NCBI GenBank assembly: GCA_022712895.1
Contig: JAFLJS010000011.1
Coordinates: forward strand, 1-64,000
Direction: 5' to 3'
From: Desulfocapsa sp.
GTDB lineage: Bacteria; Desulfobacterota; Desulfobulbia; Desulfobulbales; Desulfocapsaceae
Length of the DNA stretch: 64,000 bases
This document shows, piece after piece, positions 9,452-36,682 of this stretch (within the stretch, counting starts at the first letter, position 1; each line of letters starts with the position of its first letter). The position numbers and the translations under genes are program-made. The notes under the pieces were generated by a model. It did no database searches and had not been told where the DNA came from. It was given only the letters and a program-made list of their open reading frames with translations.

Positions 9452-9545
9452 TTGTAACATTGCTGCAAAACCAGTCATTGTGGACTCGGGGTCTTTGCTT
9501 ACCTGATCCGGACTGACAATAAAATTTGGGAAAAGCAATTAATCC

Positions 9546-9575
9546 TTGAGTTTTCCTATTGAGAATAATTATACT
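9546..9575 (+). promoter_or_regulatory. Probable sigma-70 promoter of the AOR operon
   Basis: TTGAGT at 9546-9551 and TATACT at 9570-9575 are separated by 18 bases, about 48 bases before the AOR start codon, in an AT-rich 170-base gap after the moeA-like gene. It suggests that the oxidoreductase has its own promoter besides read-through. I compared the gap with the Moco/Tuco riboswitch consensus and saw no match. Confidence 0.5.
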
Positions 9576-9622
9576 ATTTTTTTGGGTAACGAAGTTCCCT
9601 AACTATTATTTAAGGAGACACC

Positions 9623-17935: not shown

Positions 17936-17937
17936 CT

Positions 17938-18064
17938 GATGGAGTCGCAAAAACTCTTCATCTGCTTCGTTACTAAAATATTACTATCATTACGACGTAC
18001 GTTAGTACGCCGAAATGATAGTAATATTTCGTGCCTCGCATATAAAGTTTTTTTCAACTCCATT
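17938..18064 (+). repeat. Interspersed palindromic element, copy B
   Basis: The outer arms are GATGGAGTCGCAAAAACT and TTTTTTTCAACTCCAT. The inner arms TATTACTATCATTACG and CGAAATGATAGTAATA pair almost perfectly around ACGTACGTTAGTACG. It begins two bases after the Rieske stop and ends 45 bases before cytochrome b, so any joint transcript must carry this long hairpin. Confidence 0.88.
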
Positions 18065-18108
18065 CTGAATTTTGGCTTTTTACGAAGCCATCATAACTGA
18101 GTGAAAAT

Positions 18109-18858: not shown

Positions 18859-18882
18859 CCAATTTTAACTAAAGGAAACACA

Positions 18883-19620: not shown

Positions 19621-19631
19621 ACGAGCCGATT

Positions 19632-21791: not shown

Positions 21792-21801
21792 GGGAACTCC
21801 A

Positions 21802-22251
21802 ATGAAAAGAAACCAATCAAAAACTACCGTATTGTTTGCTGCTTTTTGTCTTTCACTCATGCTTTGTACGTTTGCATCCGCAAGTGAAACACCTCCTGCA
21901 GAAGCTGCGCAAGAAGCAACAGAGGAAGCAAAGCCAAAGCTTACAGTGAGTCTTGAGCTAGGTGAAGTTACCTACAAACATTACTGCACTCCCTGTCATG
22001 GAATGAAAGGGGATGGGACTGGCTTTAATGCCGGTAGTCTTCTGGTGAAGCCAGCCAACCACACCGATGCCAAGTTTATGTCTGAACGCAATGATGCAAA
22101 ACTCTTTGATACCATCAATCTCGGTGGTGTTGAGGTTGCTAAATCTACACTTATGCCACCATGGGGTGCAACCCTTGGTGATGAAAAAATTAAATCCGTT
22201 GTCCTCTATCTGCGCGAGCTCTGCCAGTGCAAGGCAACAAAATCCTGGTGA
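21802..22251 (+). CDS. Periplasmic monoheme cytochrome c
   Basis: About 149 residues from ATG 21802 (ribosome site AAGGGAAC). A signal peptide (LFAAFCLSLMLCTFASA) is followed by an Ala/Glu-rich linker, and then one class I heme domain with YKHYCTPCHGMKGDGTG and the distal-Met region STLMPPWGATL. It is probably a soluble electron carrier of the bc complex. The last codon overlaps the start of palindromic copy C. Similar small cytochromes are encoded at 27791 and 30930. Confidence 0.92.
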   Translation: MKRNQSKTTVLFAAFCLSLMLCTFASASETPPAEAAQEATEEAKPKLTVSLELGEVTYKHYCTPCHGMKGDGTGFNAGSLLVKPANHTDAKFMSERNDAKLFDTINLGGVEVAKSTLMPPWGATLGDEKIKSVVLYLRELCQCKATKSW

Positions 22252-22377
22252 TGGTAGAGAAAAAATTCTCCATCTACTTCGTTGCCATCATTTTTTTATC
22301 ATTGCGACGTACTTTATGTCCGACGCAACGACAAAAAAATGAAGCACCTCGTATATGAAGTTTTTTTCTATACCATC
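22250..22377 (+). repeat. Interspersed palindromic element, copy C
   Basis: The outer arms are GATGGTAGAGAAAAAATTC and TTTTTTTCTATACCATC. The inner core is TTGCGACGTACTTTATGTCCGACGCAA. Polarity words are CATCTACTTCGTTGCC on the left and GCACCTCGTATATGAAG on the right. It includes the stop codon of the monoheme cytochrome gene. A further small hairpin, TAGTGTC/GGACACTA, lies at 22506-22526 in the leader of the next gene. Confidence 0.85.
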
Positions 22378-22553
22378 TCCGTGTTTTGAGGATTGTACCG
22401 TGACAAAAACAGGTGAAAATCACCATATCAACCACATCATCCGGACCTGTATAGGAGACGCAGCGTTCACCGACACTAGGGAAGAAAGAACTGGATCATA
22501 TAAATAGTGTCTTTACCGGACACTAAGTAGCCAATCATTAGGGGGAGGCTTAT

Positions 22554-24800
22554 ATGAAATTTAAAAACAAGCAGACAAAATCACTGCTATCCGTAGGGAT
22601 GGGTGTGGTTGTCTGTATGGCATTCGCGGGAGTACAGCCGGCCAACAGCGCCACTGACCCTGCCGACGAATGGAAAAAATGGCAAACCAAATTCAACCAG
22701 GAAATGGCATCCAAACAGCCTGAGAAAAAGGCTATGTGGATGAGCAAAGAGCTGATTGAAAAGGTTCTCACAATCGATGACGCCAATCTGCCAAATACTG
22801 AAAAGCGTGGTGTTAAAGTAGAAAAATGTCTCACCTGTCATGACGGTGTTGAGCAAATTTCTGCATTCCACCCCATCGATACTTTCGGCTGTACCATCTG
22901 TCACGGTAGTGACAAGCCCGAATCATTAATCAAAAAAGAAGCACATGCAAACATGATCTCTGCCCGTTCCATGAAAGGCCAGAGAAACCCTTCTAACTTA
23001 CGTATCCTAGAAAAATCCTGTGGTACCACTGGCTGTCATAATGGCCATGAGCAGGAGGACAAAAACCATGTGTATCGTGTTCGTCGTACCGTTATGGGAC
23101 TGCAATCGGGTATTTCCGGCGCACTCCGTTATCAGTATGCAGCACAGCCATCTAAGTTCTCCTCATTCTCCGGTGTGGGAATGGACGATACTGACTATGT
23201 ACCATTGCATCGCGGTGGCGTAAAAAAGATGGATACCCTTCCTGTATTCTCTGCAAAAGATCTTGAAACAGACGATCTGGGTAACGTAATCACCACAGAT
23301 GATATGGGTAACCCCATGCGCATTGAAGGTGAGAACGCTGATTCCCAGTGGCGTAAATCTTGTGCCCGTTGTCATTTCTGGAACGAAGGTAAGCAGGCCC
23401 CATCCGATTACCGTGCCCAGGGTTGTGCATCATGTCACGTACTCTATGACAACGACGGTTTCTACAAAGGATCCGACCCTACCATTCCAAAAGACGAACG
23501 TGGTCACGGAAAGGTTCATCAAATCACCGTTTCTATCCCTGCCGAGCAGTGTATTCACTGTCATAATCGTGGCGGGCGTACTGGTGTGAGTTATGAAGGT
23601 CGTGTTGAGTCCGATTTCTACGGAACTCCTTTTATGGCCGGCAAACACTCCTCTGAGAAATTCCACGGTAAATACTACAATACCCCAATGATGGATATCC
23701 ATTATGAGAAAGGTATGGAATGTATTGACTGTCATACCCAGTTCGACACCATGGGTGACGGAAACCTCTACTCCAAGAAACATGAGCAAGCTGAAATTCG
23801 TTGTCAGGATTGCCATGGTACTTACAAAGAGGGTCTCATTACCACCAAAGTTACCGATCCTGACGATCGTGTAATTCGTCTTGGTATGGTTTCTCCAAAC
23901 TACGAAAATCAAGTTGGCGATGAAATGGTTGTTACCGCTCGTGGTAACAAGTACACCAACGTCAAAATCATTGACGGTGAGCCAATTCTCCTTTCCAAGT
24001 TTGATGGTCGTGAGCATCTGATGCCTGTTATCACCAACAAGAAAGGCGTTCACTCCATTCCTCAGCATCAAGAGCGTATGGAATGCTGGGCATGTCATGC
24101 ACGTCACACCTCGCAGTGTTACGGTTGTCATGATAACTATGACCAGACCAACAAAGGTAAAGACAAACTTACCAACCAGAAATCTGCTGGTAAGTGGCCT
24201 GAATTCAGAACCTACGTACGATACGATACCCCGCTTCTCGGCATCTCTGCCAAGGGTCTTGTAAATACTTATGTTCCAGGCTGTCAGGTATTCTTTAATG
24301 CAGTGAATAGCAAAGGTGAAATCATTGGCGACTTTGATAACTTTGTATTCCAGTCTGCTGAAGGATACTCCTCAGTAGCAACAAACCCTGTTTTCACACA
24401 TACCGTTCGTACCGAAGTTCGAAGCTGTGAAGATTGTCATCTTAACTCCAAAACCATTGGTCTTGGAACCGGTCAACTCTCCATTGGAGCAGATCTGTCT
24501 GGTAAGGATGATGCCATGAAGTACACATATGAGATGGATCGCTCCGGCCTTACCGCCGCCTTCCCACTCGATGTTATGGCAACACCACAGGGGAATCAGA
24601 TTGCATCCACGTCACACGTTGGTGCAAGACCATTTAATCAGGCTGAAATGACCAGAATCCTTAAAGTCGGTAACTGTCTGCCTTGCCATGACGGTTATGA
24701 TGATAAGATTTTCCAGGATATCTATAAAGCCTACGAAGACTTCCCGACCAAGTGTAAGAAGGATGAATTCGTTAAAAAAGCAACAGCCGCAGCTAAATAA
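22554..24800 (+). CDS. Large multiheme cytochrome c, about 12 hemes
   Basis: 748 residues with a signal peptide (LLSVGMGVVVCMAFAGVQPANS) and no membrane anchor, so periplasmic or exported. I count eleven CXXCH motifs (CLTCH, CTICH, CARCH, CASCH, CIHCH, CIDCH, CQDCH, CWACH, CYGCH, CEDCH, CLPCH) and one CX4CH (CGTTGCH). The hemes are clustered in the N-terminal and middle part, with a beta-rich stretch of about 150 residues before the last two. A strong ribosome site (GGGGGAGG) precedes it. The following gene encodes a related protein. These are not close to the characterised Omc or Mtr proteins that I know. A role as electron reservoir or conduit beyond the bc complex is inference. Confidence 0.92.
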   Translation: MKFKNKQTKSLLSVGMGVVVCMAFAGVQPANSATDPADEWKKWQTKFNQEMASKQPEKKAMWMSKELIEKVLTIDDANLPNTEKRGVKVEKCLTCHDGVEQISAFHPIDTFGCTICHGSDKPESLIKKEAHANMISARSMKGQRNPSNLRILEKSCGTTGCHNGHEQEDKNHVYRVRRTVMGLQSGISGALRYQYAAQPSKFSSFSGVGMDDTDYVPLHRGGVKKMDTLPVFSAKDLETDDLGNVITTDDMGNPMRIEGENADSQWRKSCARCHFWNEGKQAPSDYRAQGCASCHVLYDNDGFYKGSDPTIPKDERGHGKVHQITVSIPAEQCIHCHNRGGRTGVSYEGRVESDFYGTPFMAGKHSSEKFHGKYYNTPMMDIHYEKGMECIDCHTQFDTMGDGNLYSKKHEQAEIRCQDCHGTYKEGLITTKVTDPDDRVIRLGMVSPNYENQVGDEMVVTARGNKYTNVKIIDGEPILLSKFDGREHLMPVITNKKGVHSIPQHQERMECWACHARHTSQCYGCHDNYDQTNKGKDKLTNQKSAGKWPEFRTYVRYDTPLLGISAKGLVNTYVPGCQVFFNAVNSKGEIIGDFDNFVFQSAEGYSSVATNPVFTHTVRTEVRSCEDCHLNSKTIGLGTGQLSIGADLSGKDDAMKYTYEMDRSGLTAAFPLDVMATPQGNQIASTSHVGARPFNQAEMTRILKVGNCLPCHDGYDDKIFQDIYKAYEDFPTKCKKDEFVKKATAAAK

Positions 24801-24811
24801 GGAGGTGCGTG

Positions 24812-27514
24812 ATGAGTAAAACAAAACTTGCAACAATCCTCACAACTTGTGGTGCTGCCGCCCTGGTCTTCGGACTGGTAGCGACTCCCGGGTTTGCTGC
24901 GGATAAAATGATTAAAGTAGGCGATAAGATGTATCCATTGAAAAAAGTGGATGATCTTTCCGATTTCGCCGATGCCAGGCGTTTTGAGCTGCCAATGAAA
25001 AAAGTTGACGGCGAAATGATGAAGATCACTCCGGAAGGAGAGGCCTTTGCCTGGGATAAACCTCGTGCCCATGTACTGGAAGCTGAATATTTAACAATTC
25101 GCTTTCCAGTAGATAAAGTCTTTGCAGGATCGAAAGCTGCTGTAAAGGGTGGCGCATGTCTCTCATGCCATGAAGGTATTGAGGCCATTTCAGATACCCA
25201 TGATTTTGCCTGTGTGCAATGCCATCAGGGTGACGATAAGGCCAAAGACATAAAAGTTGCCCATAAGGGTATGTTCTCCAACCCATCTGATGGCAAAGTA
25301 GTTGCCAAAACCTGTGGAACAGCTGATTGTCATGCTGATCAATTACACAAGGTTGAAGCATCTCTCATGGCCACTTCAGCTGGTGAAATTAATGCCACCC
25401 GTTATGCCTGGGGCGCCCAGGATACTGTTGATGCAATGTATAGTGTTAACGGCAAAGGTGGTACCAAGGTAATCCCCACCGAGAAAGAATCCGGACAACT
25501 GGTTGATGATATGCTGCGTAAGAAGTGTCTGCGTTGCCACATTAACTCTCCGTCTCCTAATCGTCTTGGTGATTTCCGTGCAACCGGTTGTGCTGCCTGT
25601 CATATGATTTATGCAAATGACGGTCAGACCATGACTGGTGATAAGGCAATTCTTGCAACACAGAAAGCCAACAACGAAGCAAAGGCCAATGATCCGGTTC
25701 TCAAAACTGATCTTTCAGGTATGCTTTCTAAACGTGGTTATCCAATGAAGCATCGTATGACCACTGCTATTCCAACTGTCCAATGTGTTCGCTGTCATAG
25801 CGGTAACCGCGTTGGAACAGAGTATATCGGACTCTTCGAGCATGATTTTGAGAAGATGTACCGCTCTCCTCGTGATTCCTGGAATGCACCTCTGGCGCCA
25901 TATGGTATAGATCATCATACATTAATGCCAGATATCCATTACAAAGCAGGCCTTGCCTGTATTGACTGCCATACCGGGTCTGAAATGATGGGTAACGGGA
26001 AAACCTATGCAGCGTCACATCAAGCTCTTGAAGTGACCTGTGACACTTGTCATGGTACTCCTCAAGCCGTTGCCAAAACAGCAGCACTTGCTGATGGTGA
26101 TGCAGCGCTTAAAGCAGCAAATTCTAATCCTAATATCTCTGCAAAAGCAGGTGATATGGTTGCAGTTACTGCTAAAGGCACCAAGATGTACAATGTCATG
26201 AAAACTGACAAAGGCATGGTTTTGACCTCAAAAGTTACTGGTAAGCAGCACGTTATTCCACAATTGAAAGATGTGGAAGTGCAGCCGGTAGCCCATGCAG
26301 TATCAGGTCATATGGCCAATATGGAATGTTCAGCCTGTCACTCCGGCTGGGCATCCTTGGATTTCGGAACGCATCTTATGCGTGAAGATTATCCATCGTA
26401 TAAAAAATGGAAGCGCTGGCGTGAGCCCGACCCACAGACCCTTAAGTTGCTCTTTGCAACCATGGGTTCAGGCGTTGGTGATAAGATGCAGACTCCAGAC
26501 CGTAAAACTCCTAAATTGAAGAAAGATGCATGGCCTGCAGCTCAGGAAATGGATCTTCTCAATGGTGAAGTAACAACCGGTATCTGGTTCGGTTCTATGA
26601 CCATGCGTAACTGGGAAGATGTTATTCTTGGTAAAAACCCTGAAGGTAAGGTTTCCATGTTCCGTCCACAGTATCAGTATTTTGTCAGCCACATTGGTCC
26701 TGAAACTGGTAAACTGCGTATGGAAGAAAAGGCTCTTAAGAAGAAACTTCTCATGACATCTGACCCTGATGCACGTCTGAAAGTAAAACTTGAGCTTCGT
26801 GATATGCGTAAGAAAGTTAAAGCGCAGATCTTTATGGATTCAGAGCTTGTGAAAACAACTGCAGGGATGCCGGGACTCGTTATGAACCCCTATTCTCCGC
26901 ATACCATCCAGTCCGTTGGACGGAGTTGTGAGCAATGCCATACCAATGGTGAAGCTGCAGGCCTGGGCCGTTCTGTGTTCAACAAAGCAGACGATACCTG
27001 GGTACCACAGCTTGACTCCGGACGTGCCGGACTGCCAATCGATTTCCAGATTAAGCAGGCTGTCGCAGAAGATGGTACAGCTCTCCAGATCACCACCCAG
27101 AAAGGTGCCCGTTTCTTTAATAAAGAAGAGATGGATGCACTCCTGACTAAGTCTGATTATTATCGCGCCATGCGCTATCAGGCGCTTCAGGCAGGAAACT
27201 GGGGAACATTGCTTCAGCGTAAAGAAGCAGCTCTTACCGGTGGTTCCAAACGTATGGTTAAAGAAGGAATCTCCAACGGCGATGTTCGTACAGTTGGTTC
27301 CTACTACGACACCGTTCGTTATGGTTTCTGGCAAACTGATCCTATCGTATTCACTGAAGACTACTTCAAGAAAGGTCAATCGACAATTACCGGGCGTAAA
27401 GTCTGGGAAAAGCCGGTTGTACAAGAAGAGAAGAAAGTCATAGAGGCCGGTTCTAGAACCTACCTCACCGATGAGAACACTAACTTTAACTGGATTCCTG
27501 AAGATCAGAAATAG
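24812..27514 (+). CDS. Large multiheme cytochrome c, about 10 hemes, paralogue of the preceding gene
   Basis: 900 residues with signal peptide (LATILTTCGAAALVFGLVATPGFA). I start it at ATG 24812 with AAGGAGG six to seven bases upstream; a GTG three bases earlier is less likely. Nine CXXCH motifs (CLSCH, CVQCH, CLRCH, CAACH, CVRCH, CIDCH, CDTCH, CSACH, CEQCH) and one CX4CH (CGTADCH) appear in the same order as in the upstream paralogue. Shared landmarks include KxCGTxxCH, RATGCAACH versus RAQGCASCH, and MPDIHYKAGLACIDCH versus MMDIHYEKGMECIDCH. It has lost two sites relative to the paralogue and gained a charged helical insert (about residues 640-680). It is followed by a strong terminator. 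Confidence 0.92.
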   Translation: MSKTKLATILTTCGAAALVFGLVATPGFAADKMIKVGDKMYPLKKVDDLSDFADARRFELPMKKVDGEMMKITPEGEAFAWDKPRAHVLEAEYLTIRFPVDKVFAGSKAAVKGGACLSCHEGIEAISDTHDFACVQCHQGDDKAKDIKVAHKGMFSNPSDGKVVAKTCGTADCHADQLHKVEASLMATSAGEINATRYAWGAQDTVDAMYSVNGKGGTKVIPTEKESGQLVDDMLRKKCLRCHINSPSPNRLGDFRATGCAACHMIYANDGQTMTGDKAILATQKANNEAKANDPVLKTDLSGMLSKRGYPMKHRMTTAIPTVQCVRCHSGNRVGTEYIGLFEHDFEKMYRSPRDSWNAPLAPYGIDHHTLMPDIHYKAGLACIDCHTGSEMMGNGKTYAASHQALEVTCDTCHGTPQAVAKTAALADGDAALKAANSNPNISAKAGDMVAVTAKGTKMYNVMKTDKGMVLTSKVTGKQHVIPQLKDVEVQPVAHAVSGHMANMECSACHSGWASLDFGTHLMREDYPSYKKWKRWREPDPQTLKLLFATMGSGVGDKMQTPDRKTPKLKKDAWPAAQEMDLLNGEVTTGIWFGSMTMRNWEDVILGKNPEGKVSMFRPQYQYFVSHIGPETGKLRMEEKALKKKLLMTSDPDARLKVKLELRDMRKKVKAQIFMDSELVKTTAGMPGLVMNPYSPHTIQSVGRSCEQCHTNGEAAGLGRSVFNKADDTWVPQLDSGRAGLPIDFQIKQAVAEDGTALQITTQKGARFFNKEEMDALLTKSDYYRAMRYQALQAGNWGTLLQRKEAALTGGSKRMVKEGISNGDVRTVGSYYDTVRYGFWQTDPIVFTEDYFKKGQSTITGRKVWEKPVVQEEKKVIEAGSRTYLTDENTNFNWIPEDQK

Positions 27515-27539
27515 CAGTAGCTGATTAACACTATCCACG

Positions 27540-27580
27540 GCCGGGGTGCTCAGATTACCAGAGCACCCCGGCTATTTTTC
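27540..27580 (+). terminator. Strong Rho-independent terminator after the giant cytochromes
   Basis: GCCGGGGTGCTC pairs perfectly with GAGCACCCCGGC around a short loop, followed by TATTTTTCG. It splits the cytochrome cluster into an upstream unit (17372-27514) and a downstream unit (27791-33955). A possible promoter for the latter is TTGACA at 27736, with no good -10 box at the usual distance. Confidence 0.9.
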
Positions 27581-27790
27581 GTTTGATAAGACTGGTAAAC
27601 AGGCATTTAATCTACAGGCTATAAACAAGGACGTTATGAGCCTGAAGTCCTAAATTCCTTAAGCCTGATATTGCTTTTATCAGCTCTTAGTTTTCAAAAT
27701 GAGAAAATGGTGATACAATTTTATTAGTTTCTATTTTGACAACTAACAGTTGCAGAATCTTAGAAAATAAACAGGGAGGAACATTAGCAA

Positions 27791-28237
27791 ATGAAAACAC
27801 CAAGAAATGGAATGAACATTATTGTTCTGGTAACAATGATTTTCGGACTCATTGTCTGCTTTGCCGCCACCAGTATGGCCGCAGCAAATATAAAAAAGGG
27901 AAAGAGACGATACAATGAGTTCTGTACTCCCTGCCATGGCAAAAACGGTCTAGGTGATGGAACCAGAATGAAGGTGGAAAAGTTTGACCCGGCTCCACGA
28001 AACCACACCGAAGGCAATTACATGAACAGACGGACCGATGTCCAGCTCTTTAAAGTTGTAAAAGAGGGTGGAAAATCACAGAATTTCTCCCATATTATGC
28101 CCCAGTGGAAACATATATTAAAAGATAAAGAAGTCTGGAATATAGTGGCTTATATTCGTTCGCTTGCCGTAAATCCAGAATGGACTGGCACCCCGCTGCC
28201 ACCAGATCCAAAATTTGATAAGAGCCAGAAAAAATAA
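27791..28237 (+). CDS. Exported monoheme cytochrome c
   Basis: 148 residues. A signal peptide (residues 8-32) is followed by a class I domain with YNEFCTPCHGKNGLGDG and the distal region SHIMPQWKHILKDKEVWNIVAYIRSL. It is clearly paralogous to the cytochrome at 30930: both share PRNHT, the YMN segment, DVxLFKV and IMPQWKHILKDKE. GGGAGG lies 11 bases before the ATG. It is the first gene of the second half of the cluster and likely a soluble carrier between the bc complex and an acceptor. Confidence 0.92.
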   Translation: MKTPRNGMNIIVLVTMIFGLIVCFAATSMAAANIKKGKRRYNEFCTPCHGKNGLGDGTRMKVEKFDPAPRNHTEGNYMNRRTDVQLFKVVKEGGKSQNFSHIMPQWKHILKDKEVWNIVAYIRSLAVNPEWTGTPLPPDPKFDKSQKK

Positions 28238-28290
28238 TACCGGTGAAAAACGATACGCTGGTTTCACTACCAGCAGAAAATGGAGAAGAT

Positions 28291-28875
28291 ATGAAAAAGA
28301 TTTTATTATGCAGTGCATTAGCACTCCTCGTGAGCTCACCTGCCCTGGCTCAGGAAAAGAAAGAATATGATTTTGCCGGTGTTAATAGTTGTAAAAAATG
28401 TCACCGTAAAGTGTGGAAGACTTGGAAAAAGACCCCCATGGCTGAATCCTTTACTATCCTCATGCCCGGTGAACGTGCCGAAATGAAGACAAAAGCCGGA
28501 CTTGATCCCAACAAAGATTACACCAAAGATGCCAGCTGTCTACCTTGCCACACCACAGGATACGGCAAAGCCGGTGGATTTGTAAGCGTTGAAGAGACAC
28601 CTGATTTAAAAGGTGTTGGCTGTGAGGCATGTCACGGTGCAGGAACTGCGTACAACAAGGTTATGAAAAAACGTGGTCGCGTTTACACTGAAGAAGAAAT
28701 GGTGCATACCGGCCTCAACCTTGATCCGCGTGCCACCTGTCTCACGTGTCACAATGAGAAGAGCCCCACCAGTGAGTTCCAGGAGAAAATTGATCCATCT
28801 GAACATGACTGGCCGGGACATGATGAGGTTAAGCTGAAATATCATACTCCTGAGTATCAGGCCAACAAACTGTGA
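28291..28875 (+). CDS. Tetraheme cytochrome c, c554-like family
   Basis: About 194 residues from ATG 28291 (ribosome site TGGAGAAG; an upstream GTG start at 28243 is less likely). After the signal peptide (LLCSALALLVSSPALA) come CKKCH, CLPCH, CEACH and CLTCH with the cytochrome c554-type spacing and the C-K-x-C-H-x3-W opening (NSCKKCHRKVWKTWKKTPM). Family members occur in nitrogen and iron/sulfur electron transfer, and the partner here is unknown. The gene ends within palindromic copy D. Confidence 0.88.
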   Translation: MKKILLCSALALLVSSPALAQEKKEYDFAGVNSCKKCHRKVWKTWKKTPMAESFTILMPGERAEMKTKAGLDPNKDYTKDASCLPCHTTGYGKAGGFVSVEETPDLKGVGCEACHGAGTAYNKVMKKRGRVYTEEEMVHTGLNLDPRATCLTCHNEKSPTSEFQEKIDPSEHDWPGHDEVKLKYHTPEYQANKL

Positions 28876-29013
28876 TGGTCTTCATCTTCTTCGTCACCAC
28901 AAATTTGCTGTCGTTACGACGTACTCAAGTACGTCTCACTCCAACAAATTTGCACCCCAAGGGTATTTCCTGCGGGGCAAGTTCCTCGAATATGAAGTTT
29001 TTCACTTAGCCAT
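28874..29013 (+). repeat. Interspersed palindromic element, copy D (with nested hairpin)
   Basis: GATGGTCTTCATCTTCTTCGTC begins in the cytochrome stop codon. Inner arms CAAATTTG and CAAATTTG flank GTTACGACGTACTCAAGTACGTC. Near its right side an extra hairpin, GCACCCCAAGGGTATTTCC then TGCGGGGC (28952-28979), is inserted, so this copy is asymmetric. The right arm ends TATGAAGTTTTTCAC. Confidence 0.75.
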
Positions 29014-29063
29014 TTAAAAGTTAACCTTCACCAGCTTATCAACTGCAAGAAGAGGATATATTC

Positions 29064-29462
29064 ATGAAACGAATCACCGCAATGTTCCTGCTTGGCTTCT
29101 GTGTGCTGTTCAGTTTTGCCAGCACCTCCCATGCTGAAACCATTGAAATTAAGATTAAGAACTTCAATTTCTATCCACCAGACCCAGTCATCAATGTTGG
29201 TGACACTGTGGTTTGGACCAATACAATGAATTATGGCCACTGGGTTATCTCCGGTGTTGATATGCGCCACAACAATAAATTTTTCTCCTATCTCCTGTTA
29301 CGCGGAACCAAATTCAGTTATACCTTCCGCACCCCCGGAGATTATCCATACTACTGTCCCATCCACTCCATGCAGGCTATGATCTCCGTTGTTGGCGTTG
29401 AGCCTGCTGAGGGCGAATCACCTAAAGAAGGTGAAACCAAACGTCGTCGGAGAAGACAATAG
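29064..29462 (+). CDS. Exported cupredoxin (plastocyanin/azurin-like)
   Basis: 132 residues with a signal peptide (residues 1-24). The single domain has the type I copper ligands His59 (NYGHW), Cys98, His101 and Met106 in YYCPIHSMQAM, with the C-x2-H-x4-M spacing of plastocyanins. The C-terminus is a charged tail ending KRRRRRQ, which could bind an acidic partner or membrane surface. A blue copper protein beside a bc complex and small cytochromes suggests an alternative periplasmic electron carrier. This is uncommon for a strict anaerobe and points to a fairly high potential acceptor. Neighbours include a NosL/TRASH-like protein, consistent with copper delivery. Confidence 0.88.
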   Translation: MKRITAMFLLGFCVLFSFASTSHAETIEIKIKNFNFYPPDPVINVGDTVVWTNTMNYGHWVISGVDMRHNNKFFSYLLLRGTKFSYTFRTPGDYPYYCPIHSMQAMISVVGVEPAEGESPKEGETKRRRRRQ

Positions 29463-29464
29463 TA

Positions 29465-29758
29465 ATGCCAAAAAGTGTTCCTCGGTTTCTTGTTTGCATT
29501 GTCTCACTTGTTGCAATTGTGGTAATTGTTCTCTTCCTGGAGACTAGCAAGGTCGAAACAAAACAGCAGGAAACTCAGGAAACATTTCAATCAGGCCTGG
29601 GTGGAATAGGCACCGGGGCAACCACTGTTCCTGCATGGAACTTTGGCGATTATGACAGCCGACTGCAACCGGGTGGTTATGACCGGAGCTATCCCATCCC
29701 CGGTGGATATTCCTATTCGCCAGACCGTTTGACCATGATCTCCGGATTTCAGGACTAG
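29465..29758 (+). CDS. Small membrane-anchored protein of unknown function
   Basis: 97 residues. One N-terminal membrane helix (about residues 8-25) is followed by a Gln/Glu-rich linker (ETKQQETQETFQ) and a Gly/Tyr/Pro-rich tail (GGYDRSYPIPGGYSYSP) predicted to lie outside the cytoplasm. It starts two bases after the cupredoxin stop and is followed 11 bases later by the permease. No family recognised. It may anchor or dock the cupredoxin or permease; that is speculation from position. Confidence 0.7.
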   Translation: MPKSVPRFLVCIVSLVAIVVIVLFLETSKVETKQQETQETFQSGLGGIGTGATTVPAWNFGDYDSRLQPGGYDRSYPIPGGYSYSPDRLTMISGFQD

Positions 29759-29769
29759 CAAAACCCCTT

Positions 29770-30915
29770 ATGCAGCTCCATATCAATCTCTTTATTCAGG
29801 CCGTTCTTTCCATCCTGCGCAATCGTGCCAGGAGTCTTGTCGTGAGTGCGTGTCTGATAGCTGTACTGTTACCGTTTATCACCGCAATGGCGGTTTCTGA
29901 AGGTATACGGGCGCAGTCTGCAATTTCTGTCCATAAGGGAGCTGATCTCTATATCAGTCGTGCACAATACGGACGAAATGGTGCTATTGACCTTGCAGAG
30001 ATTAAAAATTTTGCTAAAATCCCTGGTGTTACCTCGGTTGTTCCACGAATCAGCGGACGTACTTATATGGGAGAAGAACTGGCTATGGTTGTGGGAATTG
30101 ATAATCCGCAGTTAATCAACAGTAAAAGCCAGAAGTTGCAAAGCGGTGAACTGCTCATGGGCCGCCTACTGGCAGGACGGCTTGATCTGCAAAAGGGAGA
30201 TGAAGTCCGATTCTTCCTCTTCCCCGCATTATCTTTTACCATTGTTGATCTTATTGACGGTGATCTCGCCATCTGGGCCTCATCTCTTGTTATTCTTTCT
30301 TTTAATGATGCCGCAACGATCTTTAAACTACCCGGGTATGCCTCTGAAATTTTACTATATACTCGTCCCGGAACGGCAGACGCTATCGCTGAACAGCTAA
30401 ATGGCCTGGGTAAACCATGGGATATGACCCCACCCCTACGCATTCAGACGAAATCTATTGTAGAACAGTACATCAATCGTGGTTTTGATTTACAATCAGG
30501 TGTCTTTTTCCTTTTTTATCTAACAGCTTTTGCCCTCTCAATTCCAGCACTCCTTATCCTTTCCGGATTCGGCAGGGGTGCCAGAAAAAAAGAAATCGGC
30601 ATACTCAAAGCCACCGGCTGGCAAACCCTTGAAGTGATGGAAATGACCTGTATGGAAAACCTACTTCTTGCCTTGTCCAGCAGTATGCTTGCAGTTGTAC
30701 TGGCAATGGTCTGGTTGAAGTTTGGAAATGGAATAGGCGTTGCTCCTCTTTTTATCAGTGGCATTGCCTGGGTTCCTGAGTTTCAGGTACCATCTCTTTT
30801 CACACCCATGCCCGTACTTTTTGCCTTTCTCTTTGGTCTGGTGCTCACCATGCTCGGTACCATTTTCAGTACCTGGAAGACCGCGATTACTCCACCGCTA
30901 ACCACAATGAATTAA
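29770..30915 (+). CDS. ABC transporter permease, FtsX/MacB/LolC-like
   Basis: 381 residues. There is an N-terminal helix (about 18-42), a periplasmic domain of roughly 200 residues (MacB_PCD-like), then three C-terminal helices in the FtsX arrangement, including GFGRGARKKEIGILKATGWQ near residue 270, the usual coupling-helix segment. Such permeases do not move substrate through the membrane but transmit ATP hydrolysis to a periplasmic partner or extract lipoproteins. The matching ATPase is at 31391, separated by a cytochrome gene. A role in assembling the exported heme/copper proteins is a reasonable but untested guess. Confidence 0.88.
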   Translation: MQLHINLFIQAVLSILRNRARSLVVSACLIAVLLPFITAMAVSEGIRAQSAISVHKGADLYISRAQYGRNGAIDLAEIKNFAKIPGVTSVVPRISGRTYMGEELAMVVGIDNPQLINSKSQKLQSGELLMGRLLAGRLDLQKGDEVRFFLFPALSFTIVDLIDGDLAIWASSLVILSFNDAATIFKLPGYASEILLYTRPGTADAIAEQLNGLGKPWDMTPPLRIQTKSIVEQYINRGFDLQSGVFFLFYLTAFALSIPALLILSGFGRGARKKEIGILKATGWQTLEVMEMTCMENLLLALSSSMLAVVLAMVWLKFGNGIGVAPLFISGIAWVPEFQVPSLFTPMPVLFAFLFGLVLTMLGTIFSTWKTAITPPLTTMN

Positions 30916-30929
30916 CCCTGGGAGAACTT

Positions 30930-31394
30930 ATGAAAAACACGAGACAGACAGCTTTAACATTTCTTTGTATGACATTTCTTCTCCTCTTGGCCAATACAAG
31001 CACAGCCAGTGATGTAAAGCGAGGTGCCAGAATTTACCAGCAATATTGTACCCCCTGTCATGGTCAGGAGGGTAACGGCCGCGGCCCGCGAGCCAAAAAT
31101 GAGGCCCTGCAACCACCACCACGGAACCATACCAATGGTTTCTATATGAATATGCAAAGCGATGTGCGTTTATTTAAAGTAATTAAATTCGGCGGGAAGA
31201 AAAACAACCTCGCCCACATCATGCCGCAGTGGAAACACATCCTGAAAGATAAAGAGATATTCACCATTATTGCCTATATCAGAACCCTGGCCCAAGACCC
31301 GGAATATGTTGCTCCTACCACACAAGGGTGGAGAAAAAATCCCTACGCTGGGGATGAAAGGGAACAGTTAAAAGACCATATTAAAAAGCAATGA
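30930..31394 (+). CDS. Exported monoheme cytochrome c
   Basis: 154 residues with signal peptide (FLCMTFLLLLANTSTAS) and one heme site, YQQYCTPCHGQEGNGRG, with distal IMPQWKHILKDKEIFTIIAYIRTL. Sister of the cytochrome at 27791. It lies between the ABC permease and the ABC ATPase genes and overlaps the ATPase start by four bases, so it is made together with the transporter. It could be the protein whose maturation or docking the transporter serves, or an electron donor to the complex. Confidence 0.92.
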   Translation: MKNTRQTALTFLCMTFLLLLANTSTASDVKRGARIYQQYCTPCHGQEGNGRGPRAKNEALQPPPRNHTNGFYMNMQSDVRLFKVIKFGGKKNNLAHIMPQWKHILKDKEIFTIIAYIRTLAQDPEYVAPTTQGWRKNPYAGDEREQLKDHIKKQ

Positions 31395-32068
31395 CAGCCC
31401 CTCTTCTACAAGCCATAAATCTCTCCAAAAGGTATGTACTGAGCGGGAACCATACTGTCCATGCCTTGCAGGATGCCAGTATGGAACTCACGCAAGGGAG
31501 CTGGCTGACCATTACTGGGCCATCGGGCTCCGGGAAATCTACTCTGCTCGCCTTGCTGGCTGGTCTTGATCGGCCAACTACCGGTGAGGTGTTACTTGAT
31601 GGAACAAATATCAGCCAGGCCAATGATGTTCGCCTGGCACGTTACAGGAAAAAAAAGATTGGAATTATTTTTCAGGAATATCATCTCTTTGAAGAACTAA
31701 ATAGTCTTGAGAATGTCGCTATGCCTTTGGTTGTGAGTAATATGACAATAAAACAGCGCCATGCACAAGCAATGTCACTTCTTGAGACCGTTGGGCTGGC
31801 TGATCGGGCGACACATCTCCCCCGCCAGCTTTCCGGTGGGGAGAGGCAACGTGTGGCTGTGGCTCGTGCTTTGGTGCATGATCCGGAAATTATTTTTGCA
31901 GATGAGCCAACCTCCAATATTGACCAGAAAGCAGCAGATAAAGTGCTACACCTTTTTCACTCCTTCAAGAACGCAGGAAAAAGCCTGATTGTAGTAAGCC
32001 ATAGTAAGCAACTTTCTGCGGCAGCTGACACACTGATTCAAATGGAATCCGGGAGAATTGTACTATGA
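31391..32068 (+). CDS. ABC transporter ATPase, LolD/MacB-like
   Basis: 225 residues, a single nucleotide-binding domain. Walker A is GPSGSGKST (residues 43-51), the Q-loop is [10 protein letters not shown], the signature is LSGGERQR and Walker B is IIFADEPTS with the catalytic Glu. The sequence is of the LolD/FtsE/MacB class that pairs with FtsX-type permeases, here the one at 29770. It overlaps the preceding cytochrome gene and the following membrane protein gene by four bases each. Confidence 0.93.
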
Positions 32069-33090
32069 TAGTCAACCCATGGACAGTCTCATCACTCAGC
32101 CTCGACATTGCTTCCGCTAGTCTTGGTATCATTGCAGCCGTTGGAGCCATAAAACAATTTCGCACGACAACAAAACGTTTACCTGAAACAGGCGAACGAC
32201 TGGCTGAAAGTGAGGATCGGCTCTATCTGCTCTTCTGGATTGGTGCAGTATTTCTTTTTTTGCGTTTTCTTGCCTGGCCACTTTTTTATTTCAGCTTACA
32301 CTCCATCATCCCAGAAGTACCTGGAGCCATGTGTATTTTCGGCACACGAAATCTTCAACCTGTTCTGACAAAAGTCCTGGAACTGACCAAACCATTGCTG
32401 TTTTTTGCAGGACTGGTTTGGCTTCTTGTCTTCAGGCTCGAACGCTTTTTCTATCAATCGGGAAGCGGCTCTAAAGCACGCAGGTCCAGTCTCGTCCTTC
32501 TCTCGTTTTGTCTAATTGCAGGACTTGTTGACAGTATAGGATCGGCAGCCCTGTGGATTCAGAGTAATGCAGAGCTAGCAGTTTCCTGTTGCACAACCAT
32601 AACTGATATCCCCTCACGCTTTACCGTCTGGCTTCCCACTTCACTCTTTGGCCATGAGTATCATCCACTGCTATGGAACCTCTTTTACGGATCAAACATC
32701 CTGTTGATCTGTGTGGCTCTCTTCTTTTCAAGGCAAATCGCAAAGGGGGGGGTAAGGCAACGTTCCTTTTTCTTTCTGTTGTTGCTCGCTCTTCTCAATA
32801 TAGCTATCGGACTATTTGCCTATATCGAAGTTATTGCTCCAAAGCTTATGAACCTGCCTTTTCACCACTGTCTGTACTGCATGGTACAGAACGTTATGGA
32901 TGCGCCTGTTTTTGTGGCACTCTTTATTGGCGGCAACGCACTTTTAGGTGCAATTTTTCCAGTTCATTTACTTGCTGCCAGTTGGGCAGAATCATCACAT
33001 CTCAACTCACTCACAAAAAAACTTCTCTTTTTTGGAGTACTCTTTCTAATTGGAAATATGCTGATGATTACAACCCATATTTTTCTCTAA
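32065..33090 (+). CDS. Polytopic membrane protein of unknown function
   Basis: 341 residues with about eight predicted membrane helices and no domain that I recognise. Potentially functional residues lie near the C-terminal third in PFHHCLYCMVQN (two His, two Cys, CLYC spacing), as well as a CC pair in LAVSCCTTITD and an isolated Cys in GAMCIFGTRN. These could bind copper or heme, or form disulfides. It is translationally coupled to the ABC ATPase and followed by the NosL/thioredoxin-like protein, so it probably belongs to the same assembly function. It might be a heme or copper handling membrane protein; this is inference. Confidence 0.75.
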   Translation: MIVNPWTVSSLSLDIASASLGIIAAVGAIKQFRTTTKRLPETGERLAESEDRLYLLFWIGAVFLFLRFLAWPLFYFSLHSIIPEVPGAMCIFGTRNLQPVLTKVLELTKPLLFFAGLVWLLVFRLERFFYQSGSGSKARRSSLVLLSFCLIAGLVDSIGSAALWIQSNAELAVSCCTTITDIPSRFTVWLPTSLFGHEYHPLLWNLFYGSNILLICVALFFSRQIAKGGVRQRSFFFLLLLALLNIAIGLFAYIEVIAPKLMNLPFHHCLYCMVQNVMDAPVFVALFIGGNALLGAIFPVHLLAASWAESSHLNSLTKKLLFFGVLFLIGNMLMITTHIFL

Positions 33091-33094
33091 TCCG

Positions 33095-33955
33095 ATGATG
33101 AAATCATCTAAAACAGCACTGTTTTGCGGCCTCTTCTTCCTTCTTCTTGCATCCCTTGCCTGGGTGTCAGGACAGAGTGACAAGGGAAATGAGAGCTGCC
33201 TGGTGGATGGAACCTCTCTTCTCCCCATCAGTCGCGTCTCCATTCAATCTACGGATGGAAACATATCACTTTTCTGCTCCCTCTGCTGTGCACGTACCTG
33301 GCTCGATGCACACCAAGAAGTGGCAGCAGATTTGAAGATAGGGAAAGGCAGCATCACTGTGGTTGATGAAATATCCGGATTGGAAATCGATGCCACACTG
33401 GCCTACTATGTGGAAAGTAACGACTACAGTCGCAAAGAAAACAGATGTCGTAGCCATGTATTTTCCGACAAACAGACTGCCTCCAAATATCTGCGTAAAA
33501 GTGGAGGCCGCGAACTACAGGGTTATCTGGCAGGGCTTGGACCAAAACTTTCCTGGGCCGCTGATTTCACACTTCCAGATATGGAGGGAAGACAAATCAG
33601 GCTTTCGGATTTTCGGGGAAAAATTGTCTTTCTTCGCTTTTTCAGCATGAAGAATCCCTTTGTAAAGCAGGATTTCACCGACCTGCAAATAGCTCAGGAA
33701 CGATTCCAAGATAAGGGCTTTACGGTACTGGCAGTAAGTGTTGAAGACACAAAGAAAGATGTGGAAAGACTTCTGAAAAAACTCAGAATTACCTTTCCCG
33801 TTCTCGTAGACTTTGATGGGAAGATTGCAGACAGCTATCAGATAACCGGATTTCCCACAGGATTCTTACTGGACCCTTCAGGAATTGTTGATTCCAGCAC
33901 TATTGGTGAAGTAACAGCCGACGTACTTGCACCTTTTTTACATTCACTACGATAA
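33095..33955 (+). CDS. NosL/TRASH-like domain fused to a cysteine-less thioredoxin-fold domain
   Basis: 286 residues. After the signal/anchor (residues 8-24) a Cys-containing domain carries SCLVDGTSLLPI and LFCSLCCARTWL, resembling NosL or TRASH metal-binding modules. A C-terminal AhpC/TSA-TlpA-like fold (from WAADFTLPDMEGRQ near residue 152) follows. In the latter the active-site CXXC of TlpA proteins is replaced: FFSMKNPFVKQ stands where FWATWCPPCRAE is expected, with Asn and Val at the cysteine positions, while the cis-Pro loop GFPTGF is kept. It therefore cannot do thiol exchange in the usual way and may be a binding or chaperone domain. Last gene of the cluster. Confidence 0.8.
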   Translation: MMKSSKTALFCGLFFLLLASLAWVSGQSDKGNESCLVDGTSLLPISRVSIQSTDGNISLFCSLCCARTWLDAHQEVAADLKIGKGSITVVDEISGLEIDATLAYYVESNDYSRKENRCRSHVFSDKQTASKYLRKSGGRELQGYLAGLGPKLSWAADFTLPDMEGRQIRLSDFRGKIVFLRFFSMKNPFVKQDFTDLQIAQERFQDKGFTVLAVSVEDTKKDVERLLKKLRITFPVLVDFDGKIADSYQITGFPTGFLLDPSGIVDSSTIGEVTADVLAPFLHSLR

Positions 33956-34099: not shown

Positions 34100-34432
34100 A
34101 TGAAAACCACACTTCAAACAGTTGCATTCCTTCTCACATTTGCATTTATCTGCATGGGAGCCTCATCAGCACTGGCCTTCGATGCTAAATACAAATACAC
34201 AATCCCCAGCATGGAAACACAAGAAGATATTGATAAAGTAACAGCCTTTATCAAGGCCCTACCAGGGATTATGGAGATCACAGTTATGAAAGACAATCAG
34301 GAAGTAATCGTCTTTTTTGATGACGAGGAACTGGATGATGAGAAATTCCAGCTGCGTATTCCTCTTTATAAGGAAGGATACCAAGTTACTGAATATGATA
34401 TTCTCTATGAAGATCCAAACAAGAGAAACTAA
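34100..34432 (+). CDS. Small exported HMA-like protein 1 (no CXXC)
   Basis: About 110 residues from ATG 34100 (ribosome site AAGGAG). A signal peptide (LLTFAFICMGASSALA) is followed by a single domain of about 80 residues with the beta-alpha-beta-beta-alpha-beta pattern of heavy-metal-associated domains: YKYTIPSMETQEDIDKV, PGIMEITVMKDNQEVIVFFD. The metal loop CXXC is absent; the sequence there is IPSMET. Two paralogues are encoded on the opposite strand at 34534 and 35014. Role unknown; it stands next to the copper/heme cluster. Confidence 0.75.
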   Translation: MKTTLQTVAFLLTFAFICMGASSALAFDAKYKYTIPSMETQEDIDKVTAFIKALPGIMEITVMKDNQEVIVFFDDEELDDEKFQLRIPLYKEGYQVTEYDILYEDPNKRN

Positions 34433-34451
34433 AAAAGAATAGCTGACATAC

Positions 34452-34510
34452 GAACAAGAAATATCGAATTACTACAATAGAGAAACTTCGTTATTCAATA
34501 TTTCTTGTTC
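34452..34510. terminator. Bidirectional terminator-like hairpin between convergent genes
   Basis: GAACAAGAAATAT (34452-34464) pairs with ATATTTCTTGTTC (34498-34510), perfect over 13 pairs, with a loop that can fold further. It sits between the converging genes ending at 34432 and 34534 and could stop transcripts from both sides, although U runs are short. Confidence 0.6.
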
Positions 34511-34533
34511 ACAACTTACAAGCCACTTCAGAC

Positions 34534-34842
34534 CTAATTCATCAAGCCGCCTTTAGGTTCTTCAAGCAGCATTTTTTTCTCAATTACAAAACCTGCATCA
34601 ATCAGTGCCTTCTCAGCAACTTCCTCATTGCTTTTATCATCATCGAAAAAAAACATAACTGAATTAAAAACAACATCAGGCACGATGTCATACACTCCTG
34701 GTACGGTATCAAGCACCTCATAGACAGCAACTGCTGTTTCACGATTATCAATGGCTGGCATAAAAAATTTCCACTGGTATTCTTTTGCTTGAACAGTGCT
34801 TGCAAGGAGGAGGAGAGTGAGGGCTATCAGTATTTGTTTCAT
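34534..34842 (-). CDS. Small exported HMA-like protein 2 (no CXXC)
   Basis: About 102 residues from the ATG at 34842 (an upstream ATG at 34857 is possible). Signal peptide IALTLLLLASTVQA, then one domain with the same fold pattern as its neighbours: YQWKFFMPAIDNRETAVAV, VPGVYDIVPDVVFNSVMFFFDD. The metal loop CXXC is replaced by MPAID. The second half is the most diverged of the three. It is transcribed on the minus strand after the paralogue at 35014, with palindromic copy H between them. Confidence 0.72.
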   Translation of the reverse strand: MKQILIALTLLLLASTVQAKEYQWKFFMPAIDNRETAVAVYEVLDTVPGVYDIVPDVVFNSVMFFFDDDKSNEEVAEKALIDAGFVIEKKMLLEEPKGGLMN

Positions 34843-34889
34843 AGTTATATTTTCCATTTCAATTCAGTTCAGTTCGATTTGCGACTAAT

Positions 34890-35015
34890 GATGGATCTGT
34901 AAAGACCTCCTATTCGAAACACGCCAACTTCAAATCATTGCGGCGAACACAAGGTGTGTCGAAATGATTTAAAGTTGGCAGCAACGAGGACGCGGAGGAG
35001 TTTTACAGATACATC
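34890..35015 (-). repeat. Interspersed palindromic element, copy H (diverged)
   Basis: GATGGATCTGTAAAGACCTCC and GGAGGAGTTTTACAGATACATC form the outer arms. CCAACTTCAAATCATT and AATGATTTAAAGTTGG are the inner arms, around GCGGCGAACACAAGGTGTGTCG. GCAGCAACGAGGACGCGG on the right marks the reverse orientation. The primary sequence has drifted from the other copies while pairing is kept. It overlaps the stop codon of the gene at 35014. Confidence 0.7.
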
Positions 35016-35364
35016 AATCGTGACCTTCAGTGTGTTCCCACTGTATGTCCCAGCGTTCAACGGGATATCCCAGTTCATCAGCAAGGCGTAATCGAAGCTG
35101 ATAACGTTCATCATTTAAGATATCATCTTCATAATGAACATAGACCCAATGACGGTCAAGTACAGTCTCAACTTTATTCACACCCTTATGCTCTTTAATA
35201 AAATCCACCACCTTTTTTTCATCTTCAGCGCTTTTCATGGAAAAGATATAATATTTGATAATAATATCTGCGCTAACAGCCGGTTGTGGAACCAAAAATG
35301 AGCTGCAAAAAAAGAGACCAGCAAAAAGAAATTTTCTTGTTAAAGATTGCATAAAAGAGTTCAT
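35014..35364 (-). CDS. Small exported HMA-like protein 3 (no CXXC)
   Basis: About 116 residues from ATG 35364 (alternatives at 35397 and 35352). Signal peptide FLFAGLFFCSSFLVPQPAVSA, then IIIKYYIFSMKSAEDEKKV and GVNKVETVLDRHWVYVHYEDD, aligned with paralogue 1 through EDDILNDERYQLRLRL versus DDEELDDEKFQLRIPL. CXXC is replaced by FSMKS. The C-terminus is His- and acid-rich (QWEHTEGHD). First gene of a two-gene minus-strand unit, divergent from the TPR gene. Confidence 0.75.
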   Translation of the reverse strand: MNSFMQSLTRKFLFAGLFFCSSFLVPQPAVSADIIIKYYIFSMKSAEDEKKVVDFIKEHKGVNKVETVLDRHWVYVHYEDDILNDERYQLRLRLADELGYPVERWDIQWEHTEGHD

Positions 35365-35459: not shown

Positions 35460-36020
35460 ATGAACACATTAAAACTAATTTGCTCCACATTGTTACTGAT
35501 ACTTTTTATAGCATCACCCTCTTTCGGCGAAGATTCCAGCTGGGAAGAACTGAATAGTAAAGTTACTGGATATTACCAACAGCAACAGTATTCAACAGCT
35601 GTCGGATATGCAGAAGAAGCACTCGCTCTTGCCAGAAAATCGGGCAGCAAAGAAAAGATTGCAACATCTCTCAAAAACCTTGGTGAAATAAGTACCCACA
35701 TGGGGCGCCAAACAGAAGCAGAAGCCTACAACAAAGAATCCATTGCAATTCGTCAGAATCTCTTTGGACCTGACGGACTTGAAGTTGCTCTTTCCTGGAG
35801 AAGCCTGGGGTTCACCTATTTTTTAAGCGAAAAAATGGATGATGCAGAAATGTGTTTCCAGGAAGTATTACGCATTCATGTAAAAAACTACGGCGAAAAA
35901 AGTATTGAAATTGTTCCAGCTCTGCAACGTCTTGAGAAATTTTACAAATACACCAAAAACCAGGACAAAGAAAGTGCCTTCACTGAAAGAATCCTCAACT
36001 TGCAAACTGGTCCTGAATAA
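35460..36020 (+). CDS. Exported tetratricopeptide repeat protein
   Basis: 186 residues. Signal peptide (LICSTLLLILFIASPSFG), then about three TPR units: YYQQQQYSTAVGYAEEALALA, ATSLKNLGEISTHMGRQTEAEAYNKESI, and ALSWRSLGFTYFLSEKMDDAEMCFQEVL, followed by a last helix pair. This arrangement resembles kinesin-light-chain-type TPR proteins. It probably mediates protein contacts in the periplasm. The response regulator starts two bases after its stop, so the two are co-transcribed. Confidence 0.88.
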   Translation: MNTLKLICSTLLLILFIASPSFGEDSSWEELNSKVTGYYQQQQYSTAVGYAEEALALARKSGSKEKIATSLKNLGEISTHMGRQTEAEAYNKESIAIRQNLFGPDGLEVALSWRSLGFTYFLSEKMDDAEMCFQEVLRIHVKNYGEKSIEIVPALQRLEKFYKYTKNQDKESAFTERILNLQTGPE

Positions 36021-36022
36021 GG

Positions 36023-36682
36023 GTGGCCAGCAAAACAATCACAACCTTTCTGGCAGATGATCACCAAATGTTTCGCCAGGGACTTCGAACCCTGCTTGAA
36101 GCAGCACAAGATATAGAAATTTTGGGTGAAGCCAGTGATGGGCAGGAATCCTTAAAAGGGATTGAAAAGTATCAACCGGATATCGCTATCCTTGACATTG
36201 CAATGCCTGGCCTTTCCGGAATCGAAGTGGCAAAACGTCTGCCAAAAATCGCACCCGACACAAAGACTATGATTCTAACCATGCATGGAGACACTTTTTT
36301 TGCCGTGGAAGCACTGCGCGCCAAAGTGCAGGGTTTTATGCTGAAGGAAGAATCCATCGACTACCTGGTTCAGGGCATCCGCAAAGTTGCTGCTGGTGAA
36401 ATTGTTGTAACACCCTCCCTTGAGAAGGCTGTTTTTAAAGAATTACAAAACAGCCAGAGAAAACACAATGGAGTAACATCTAACAATATTCTCACCCCGC
36501 GAGAAACAGAAATTTTGCAACTTGTCGCTGAAGGCATGACTAACCAGGAAATTGCTGATCTGCTATTTATTTCACCGGCAACAGTTGATACTCACCGAAA
36601 AAACATAATGACAAAACTGGACATACATTCTGTCGCTGGCCTGGTCAAACATGCCATTCGCCATAAGATTGTAACACTGTAG
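36023..36682 (+). CDS. NarL/FixJ-family response regulator
   Basis: 219 residues, GTG start at 36023. The receiver domain has the acidic pair ADDHQ, phosphoacceptor Asp in IAILDIAMPGLSG (near residue 57), and the conserved Thr and Lys in ILTMHGD and GFMLKEES. The C-terminal LuxR-type helix-turn-helix (about 155-212) has LTPRETEILQLVAEGMTNQEIADLL. No partner kinase is adjacent on this strand. It may be served by one of the kinases at 41280-54873 or by a kinase elsewhere. Placement between a TPR protein and a KefB-like antiporter gives no clear target. Confidence 0.93.
   Translation: MASKTITTFLADDHQMFRQGLRTLLEAAQDIEILGEASDGQESLKGIEKYQPDIAILDIAMPGLSGIEVAKRLPKIAPDTKTMILTMHGDTFFAVEALRAKVQGFMLKEESIDYLVQGIRKVAAGEIVVTPSLEKAVFKELQNSQRKHNGVTSNNILTPRETEILQLVAEGMTNQEIADLLFISPATVDTHRKNIMTKLDIHSVAGLVKHAIRHKIVTL

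Follow-up and report, generated by a model that had tools for sequence, protein, structure and literature searches.

HMA domains are usually taken for metal carriers from their fold alone. A 64,000-nucleotide stretch from a contig of Desulfocapsa sp., a bacterium of the sulfur cycle (GCA_022712895.1, JAFLJS010000011.1, positions 1 to 64,000 of the forward strand; hereafter the window) raises the question of what such domains do when the metal site is gone. At the end of a cluster of copper and heme genes it carries three small genes, here called A, B and C, described in a sequence-only reading as paralogous, exported HMA-like domains devoid of metal-binding cysteines. Their homology, predicted fold, genomic setting and occurrence in relatives are reported here, together with a proposed role.

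Genes A, B and C and the repeats between them

The three genes and the two repeats that separate them are:

34100-34432, forward strand: gene A, putative signal peptide (by eye) and one HMA-fold domain; ATG start, intact ORF
34452-34510: inverted repeat with 21-nt arms and 17 nt between them, lying between the convergent stops of A and B
34534-34842, reverse strand: gene B, putative signal peptide (by eye) and one HMA-fold domain; ATG start, intact ORF
34884-35021: long imperfect palindrome, a dispersed repeat, lying between B and C only
35014-35364, reverse strand: gene C, putative signal peptide (by eye) and one HMA-fold domain; ATG start, intact ORF

Longer in-frame ATG starts are present at 34070 (A), 34857 (B) and 35397 (C), and the shorter starts were adopted. 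Each encoded N-terminus has a hydrophobic segment leading to an A-x-A-like site (ALA/F, VQA/K, VSA/D), as judged by eye. The gene A product contains an acidic loop (FDDEELDDEK) and a C-terminal tail (YEDPNKRN). When A was searched against its own genome (3.68 Mb, 75 contigs; E <= 1), only A itself, C (E 4e-12) and B (E 4e-4) were matched, and the three are therefore considered homologous.

The genes had been said to flank a palindromic element. This holds for B and C, while the gap between A and B contains the other inverted repeat, which is terminator-like by position only, a terminator scan having called none there. The palindrome folds far better than its shuffles (z -6.7), and related copies give 13 matches in 5 of 20 genomes of the genus, three of them in the window genome (elsewhere in it at G000:C24:27637-27743 and G000:C11:1088-1202); we take it to be MITE-like. 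A part as regulatory element of A, B and C was rejected, since it is a dispersed repeat and is without a match in G115, a genome that has all three genes. The palindrome has no part in the A/B/C system.

HMA homology and predicted fold

Taken singly, A, B and C are not listed by the HMA family model (PF00403) up to E 10, and they score below all NCBIfam cut-offs. A PF00403 search of their own genome found four places above cut-off, with A, B and C not among them, and of six scanned relatives only X4, a fourth copy in G115, passes (32.2 vs 24.8 bits). A profile built from an alignment of A, B, C, X4 and eight orthologues, 12 sequences in all, matched, among PDB sequences, ATP7B (2e-13), CopA of B. 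subtilis (4e-11), CopZ (2e-6) and MerP (9e-6), and it also matched HMA domains across the phylum.

The fold was modelled with AlphaFold2 for A and B, and C was placed with A by alignment and tree. Both models have the order beta-alpha-beta-beta-alpha-beta, with a mean pLDDT of 75 for A (69-72 in the helix-2 region) and 82 for B, each from an alignment of only 8 sequences. The top Foldseek rows for the A model are Atx1, CCS, CsoZ and MerP (E 4e-4 to 1e-3; TM(target) ~0.8 for single-domain targets), and by VIA it comes nearest to HMA domains, those of Pikm-1 and Menkes among them, reaching at best Z 10.5 (rmsd 2.1 over 77 residues). The fold match of A alone is not specific, because circularly permuted forms of ribosomal protein S6, which has a different ferredoxin-like fold, do nearly as well (Z 9.7). 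For the B model, re-comparison of the Foldseek candidates placed HMA7 nearest (Z 12.9, rmsd 1.4 over 74 residues); MerP is matched at Z 12.2 by B and 9.2 by A. A, B and C are members of the HMA/copper-chaperone fold, C by way of its homology to A. Both the profile comparison and the structure prediction that had been suggested as checks bear out the sequence-only reading, the former together with the own-genome search for homology, the latter for an HMA-type fold of A and B.

Loss of the metal site

Cysteine is absent from all 12 mature domains (A, B, C, their relatives and X4), as is the M-x-C-x-x-C metal site, so that the reported loss of metal-binding cysteines is correct; the gene B product has no cysteine over its entire length. 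The position of the first cysteine is occupied by T, S or N in 12/12 domains, and that of the second by D in all seven A and C, by T, A, K and K in the four B, and by T in X4. Across the cysteine positions the window proteins read T-Q-E-D (A), N-R-E-T (B) and S-A-E-D (C), in keeping with the claim that the metal loop has been replaced differently in each. The motif P/F-S-M, which had been thought to replace M-x-C-x-x-C, is seen in A and C but not in B, which has P-A-I, and it corresponds to the G-M preceding the cysteines instead of to the cysteine motif.

For comparison, the loops of 29 non-window loci were inspected, out of 89 non-window matches listed in a search of the phylum. All 29 retain Cys or probable Sec: 23 have Cys-x-x-Cys, including L096 (CSLC) and L100 (CKLC), counted from their loops by reading, and six have an in-frame TGA. 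Within the order there are three further TGA proteins (L010-L012), and L016 retains one cysteine.

Nine HMA-like proteins (L010, L011, L012, L075, L077, L078, L079, L080, L086) combine a signal-like N-terminus with an in-frame TGA and are probable selenoproteins spread across the phylum. Insertion of Sec is inferred from the conserved position of the TGA, which in the aligned proteins falls at the first-cysteine column in 7/9 and one position later, after a cysteine, in 2/9. Five that were scanned fall below the cut-offs of the existing NCBIfam selenoprotein models for UxxU (NF041115) and MerT/CopZ (NF045683), or are not listed.

Several periplasmic copper proteins use Met, His or carboxylates in place of thiols, and A, B and C could likewise still be metal carriers, handing copper to a cupredoxin or another copper site. 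Such a function would suit the copper-gene setting described below, with its cupredoxin and, in two relatives, a NosL gene before C, as well as the HMA Met retained in 10 of the 12 domains, the His residues of C (five in the window and four in G115, with a tail containing EHTEGH) and the 3-6 Met of B. We nevertheless regard it as unlikely: A, B and C have no soft ligand in common, His numbering 0 or 1 in A, 0-2 in B and 1 in the C of G227, the acidic residues that they do share are poor Cu(I) ligands, and the conserved Met of HMA domains is usually a core residue, not a ligand.

The adjacent respiratory cluster

The three genes had been described as adjoining a copper/heme cluster, and A is indeed the next gene after the last gene of this cluster, in the same direction. 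The cluster and the genes beyond C comprise:

17372-28875, forward strand: Rieske protein, cytochrome b, cytochrome b C-terminal part, and cytochromes with 8, 1, 11, 9, 1 and 4 CxxCH motifs (the last C554-like)
29064-29462, forward strand: cupredoxin, putatively exported (by eye)
29770-30915, forward strand: FtsX/MacB-type permease
30930-31394, forward strand: cytochrome c with one CxxCH
31391-32068, forward strand: ABC ATPase
32065-33090, forward strand: membrane protein without Pfam match, in the ABC/NosL-like module
33095-33955, forward strand: fusion of NosL-like and redoxin domains, putatively exported (by eye), directly upstream of A
35460-36020, forward strand: TPR protein, divergent from C
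36023-36682, forward strand: response regulator (receiver and LuxR-type HTH), adjoining the TPR gene

A 97-residue protein without Pfam match is also listed, between the cupredoxin and the FtsX permease.

The fusion protein encoded directly upstream of A has itself lost cysteine motifs. Its redoxin domain (TlpA/AhpC-type) lacks the catalytic cysteine and has no cysteine in 4/4 orthologues, NPFV or NPFT being aligned with CxxC. Its N-terminal domain is unmatched by the NosL family model (PF05573) up to E 1 and was aligned by hhalign, at a probability of ~91%, with six NosL domains; in 4/4 orthologues it retains CxxCC and lacks the C-x-M copper motif of NosL (CLVDGT, CRLDGT, CVVDSN, CLVDGT), as that motif is defined in PMC6530538. 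With a redoxin domain free of cysteine and a NosL-like part free of C-x-M, loss of thiol chemistry would affect three folds at one locus: HMA-fold, redoxin and NosL-like.

Nitrous oxide reductase was considered as a copper client and rejected, as the clade II NosZ model was unmatched in the genome (E <= 0.01; in 14 control genomes it likewise found nothing above cut-off). The NosL client, if there is one, is therefore probably another protein.

A related module occurs elsewhere in the window genome (L116, G000:C48:40000-58000, at 5079-10029), with genes for an ATPase, a TlpA-like protein, NosL, a 100-residue protein, an FtsX permease, a second ATPase and a membrane protein. There the NosL and TlpA-like proteins are separate and retain their cysteines.

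Occurrence in relatives and gene order

Among 257 genomes of the order, four were counted as carriers of A/B/C homologues: the window genome (G000), G115 of the same genus, G062 and G227. Fourteen genomes were matched before filtering. Left out were G070, G104 and G230, whose homologues contain TGA; G182 and G013, with ordinary CxxC HMA domains; G188, with a protein in which one cysteine remains; G200 (L015), in which the HMA loop is not clear; and G032, G028 and G029 (L017-L019), whose proteins we take to resemble small heat-shock proteins. A and B are present in G062, with no C found in this 85% complete genome. Outside the window, the strongest match among 395 genomes sampled from the phylum (8e-10) is a TGA protein, and a search for plasmid-borne copies left P0001 unmatched at 1e-5 among 72,556 plasmid records.

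Close orthologues of the 11-heme cytochrome (at least 83% identity) are found in 6/257 genomes (G000, G104, G115, G110, G062 and G027), three of which are also A/B/C carriers; the chance of an overlap of at least three is 3e-5, with relatedness ignored. In the fourth carrier, G227, no close orthologue of the 11-heme cytochrome accompanies A, B and C; the genome is 70% complete and the contig is 3.5 kb long. The NosL-like/redoxin gene was found in 4/257 genomes, and A follows it directly on all three contigs that continue (window, G115, G062). In G104 the contig stops three bases past this gene, and the contigs of G110 and G027 and of the second G104 copy end before the place of A. Linkage to the cytochrome cluster, whose presence in relatives had been put forward as a check, thus holds.

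The cluster (17372-33955) has an 11-heme cytochrome that is 83-96% identical across different families, yet is as rare as the above counts indicate, hinting at horizontal transfer of the cluster. Two copies are present in G104.

A and B face each other in 4/4 carriers, in G062 at a distance of 5 kb with other genes between them. G227 has, one after another, the genes for the response regulator, TPR, NosL, C and B, and then A in the opposed direction. In G115, C lies on a contig other than that of the cluster, preceded by NosL and beside the TPR and response regulator genes. The NosL genes (PF05573) of G115 and G227 lie 5-6 nt ahead of C, between it and the TPR gene, score above the family cut-off and have an intact CxxCGM; the most similar NosL of the window genome (47-53% identity) is on another contig, C12. 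The gene for X4 (L030:5166-5462, reverse strand), the fourth cysteine-free HMA-fold protein, lies in G115 between the membrane protein and NosL-like/redoxin genes, and is missing from the corresponding place in the window.

C repeatedly lies close to genes for a TPR protein and a response regulator of the LuxR type (window, G115, G227), which might be read to mean that the three proteins have some other small molecule as ligand, or sense such a molecule on behalf of this pair. The linkage of A and B is to other genes, and we consider a ligand-binding or sensing function very unlikely.

Descent and selection

A, B and C group as a single clade (95/94) in a 25-row tree whose root was placed on four HMA domains of the Cys type. 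Within this clade, C (100/100), B (89/87) and a group of A with C (97/95) are recovered, while A as a separate clade lacks resolution. Closest to this clade among the other rows are X4 and the G104 Sec protein, with moderate support (83/82); long-branch warnings apply to these two and to two further rows. The carriers bear three family labels (f1, f6, f13). Given a single clade and carriers in three families, either the triplication predates the split of the carriers, or the set has moved between them.

Estimates of dN/dS range from 0.065 to 0.25 in the 8 of 15 orthologue pairs that gave a full-length estimate, dS being saturated in the other seven; where dN/dS can be estimated, A, B and C are under purifying selection. 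This constraint largely refutes the idea that they are functionless, decaying duplicates of a metal chaperone, which the loss of the defining motif might otherwise suggest. Decay is also at odds with the keeping of the paralogue groups in genomes of different families, and with the invariant acidic loop and near-invariant tail of A, and we find it hardly credible.

Conserved surfaces and proposed role

Conservation is distributed differently in the three proteins. In A the conserved columns are 3/3 in loop 2, 6/6 in the acidic loop 4, 6/7 in the tail, 4/6 in the old metal loop and 0/4 in loop 3; in C they are 4/6 in the metal loop, 4/4 in loop 3, 5/7 in the tail and 2/6 in loop 4; and in B they are 1/6 in the metal loop, 2/6 in loop 4 and 5/8 in the tail. 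Judging from HMA topology, loop 4 and the tail presumably occupy the end of the domain that faces away from the old metal loop. The old metal loop could still bind something, since it is partly conserved in A and C.

The 12 mature domains are without exception acidic, with pI 4.2-5.0. Cupredoxin and Rieske protein, like two of the three monoheme cytochromes, are basic (pI 9.3-9.9); the third monoheme cytochrome (pI 5.9) and the 8-heme cytochrome (pI 5.3) are themselves acidic. Acidity was set aside as proof of docking, its weight being reduced by the Sec/Cys HMA controls, 7/13 of which have a pI below 6.

Alternatively, the three proteins could belong to the Rieske/cytochrome b/multiheme complex as accessory subunits that stabilise it or dock electron carriers. 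The place of A at the cluster end in 3/3 continuing contigs and the pairing of acidic domains with some basic cytochromes would fit, but B and C are on the opposite strand and apart from the cluster, and the C of G115 is on another contig beside NosL and regulators, which makes this a rather improbable explanation for the set.

Because the cysteines have been lost and the proteins are nevertheless kept in relatives, A, B and C probably have a job other than ordinary copper carrying. The metal-site loss is retained in several genomes beside the copper/heme cluster, and the fold therefore seems to be kept for something other than thiol-based metal transfer. We propose, with moderate confidence, that A, B and C are periplasmic docking or assembly adaptors for the respiratory cluster, both the docking and the partners being inferred. 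Of the two functions suggested in the sequence-only reading, binding of another ligand and protein-protein adaptors, we prefer the second. Such adaptors would have given up thiol-based Cu(I) carriage and retained the ability of a chaperone to dock on partner proteins, and they would bring together the copper- and heme-handling parts encoded alongside. Candidate partners are the cupredoxin, NosL or the NosL-like/redoxin fusion, the FtsX-type ABC transporter and the cytochromes, and A, B and C may each address different ones. The conserved acidic loop 4 and the C-terminal tail could form one contact surface.

A bolder version of the adaptor proposal, which we offer only tentatively, would have the HMA-fold, thioredoxin-like and NosL-like parts form a metal-free scaffold, from which cysteine chemistry was removed in concert while the parts stayed conserved across bacterial families, and which matures or arranges an undescribed copper/multiheme electron-transfer complex, the HMA members having come from exported Sec chaperones.

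The three genes offer a small, expressible test case for copper-chaperone folds turning into docking parts, and they open a way into a Rieske/cytochrome b/multiheme cluster with a rare 11-heme cytochrome. They are also a caution for annotators: such proteins should not be named copper chaperones.

Comparison with known systems

One of the closest named families is MerP (TIGR02052), likewise a single HMA-fold domain, exported in MerP and preceded by a signal-like segment (by eye) in A, B and C. No other NCBIfam model matches B (20.6 bits), and MerP is among seven that match A (18.2 bits), both scores lying far below the cut-off of 92.55; it is not listed for C. Unlike MerP, A, B and C are without cysteines and have an acidic loop and a C-terminal tail beyond the HMA domain, and no mercury gene was found among their Pfam-scanned neighbours. 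The CopZ/Atx1/CsoZ chaperones and the HMA domains of CopA/ATP7B, which carry Cu(I) on Cys-x-x-Cys, have the fold and distant sequence homology in common with A, B and C; in contrast to CopZ/Atx1/CsoZ, the latter are putatively exported (by eye) and lack Cys-x-x-Cys. NosL, encoded by an intact gene ahead of C in two carriers, belongs to a different family.

Plant NLR proteins with integrated HMA domains (Pikm-1, RGA5) provide an analogy for docking, as their HMA folds appear in complex with fungal effectors in PDB entry titles; these domains belong, however, to plant immune receptors.

The TGA-containing HMA-like proteins (L010, L011, L075, L078) have, like A, B and C, a signal-like N-terminus and one HMA domain, with an [FY]DD-like loop in most. 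Such TGA proteins, together with X4, are the nearest tree rows outside A/B/C, with the moderate support given above, and they differ in having TGA (Sec) where A, B and C have S/T/N. A MerP selenoprotein is listed in PMC2398784. A literature search, whose coverage left out most subscription journals, returned no paper recognised as describing A, B and C. HMA-like selenoproteins are thus already known as a kind; what is new is a set of exported, cysteine-free HMA-fold proteins tied to a respiratory cluster.
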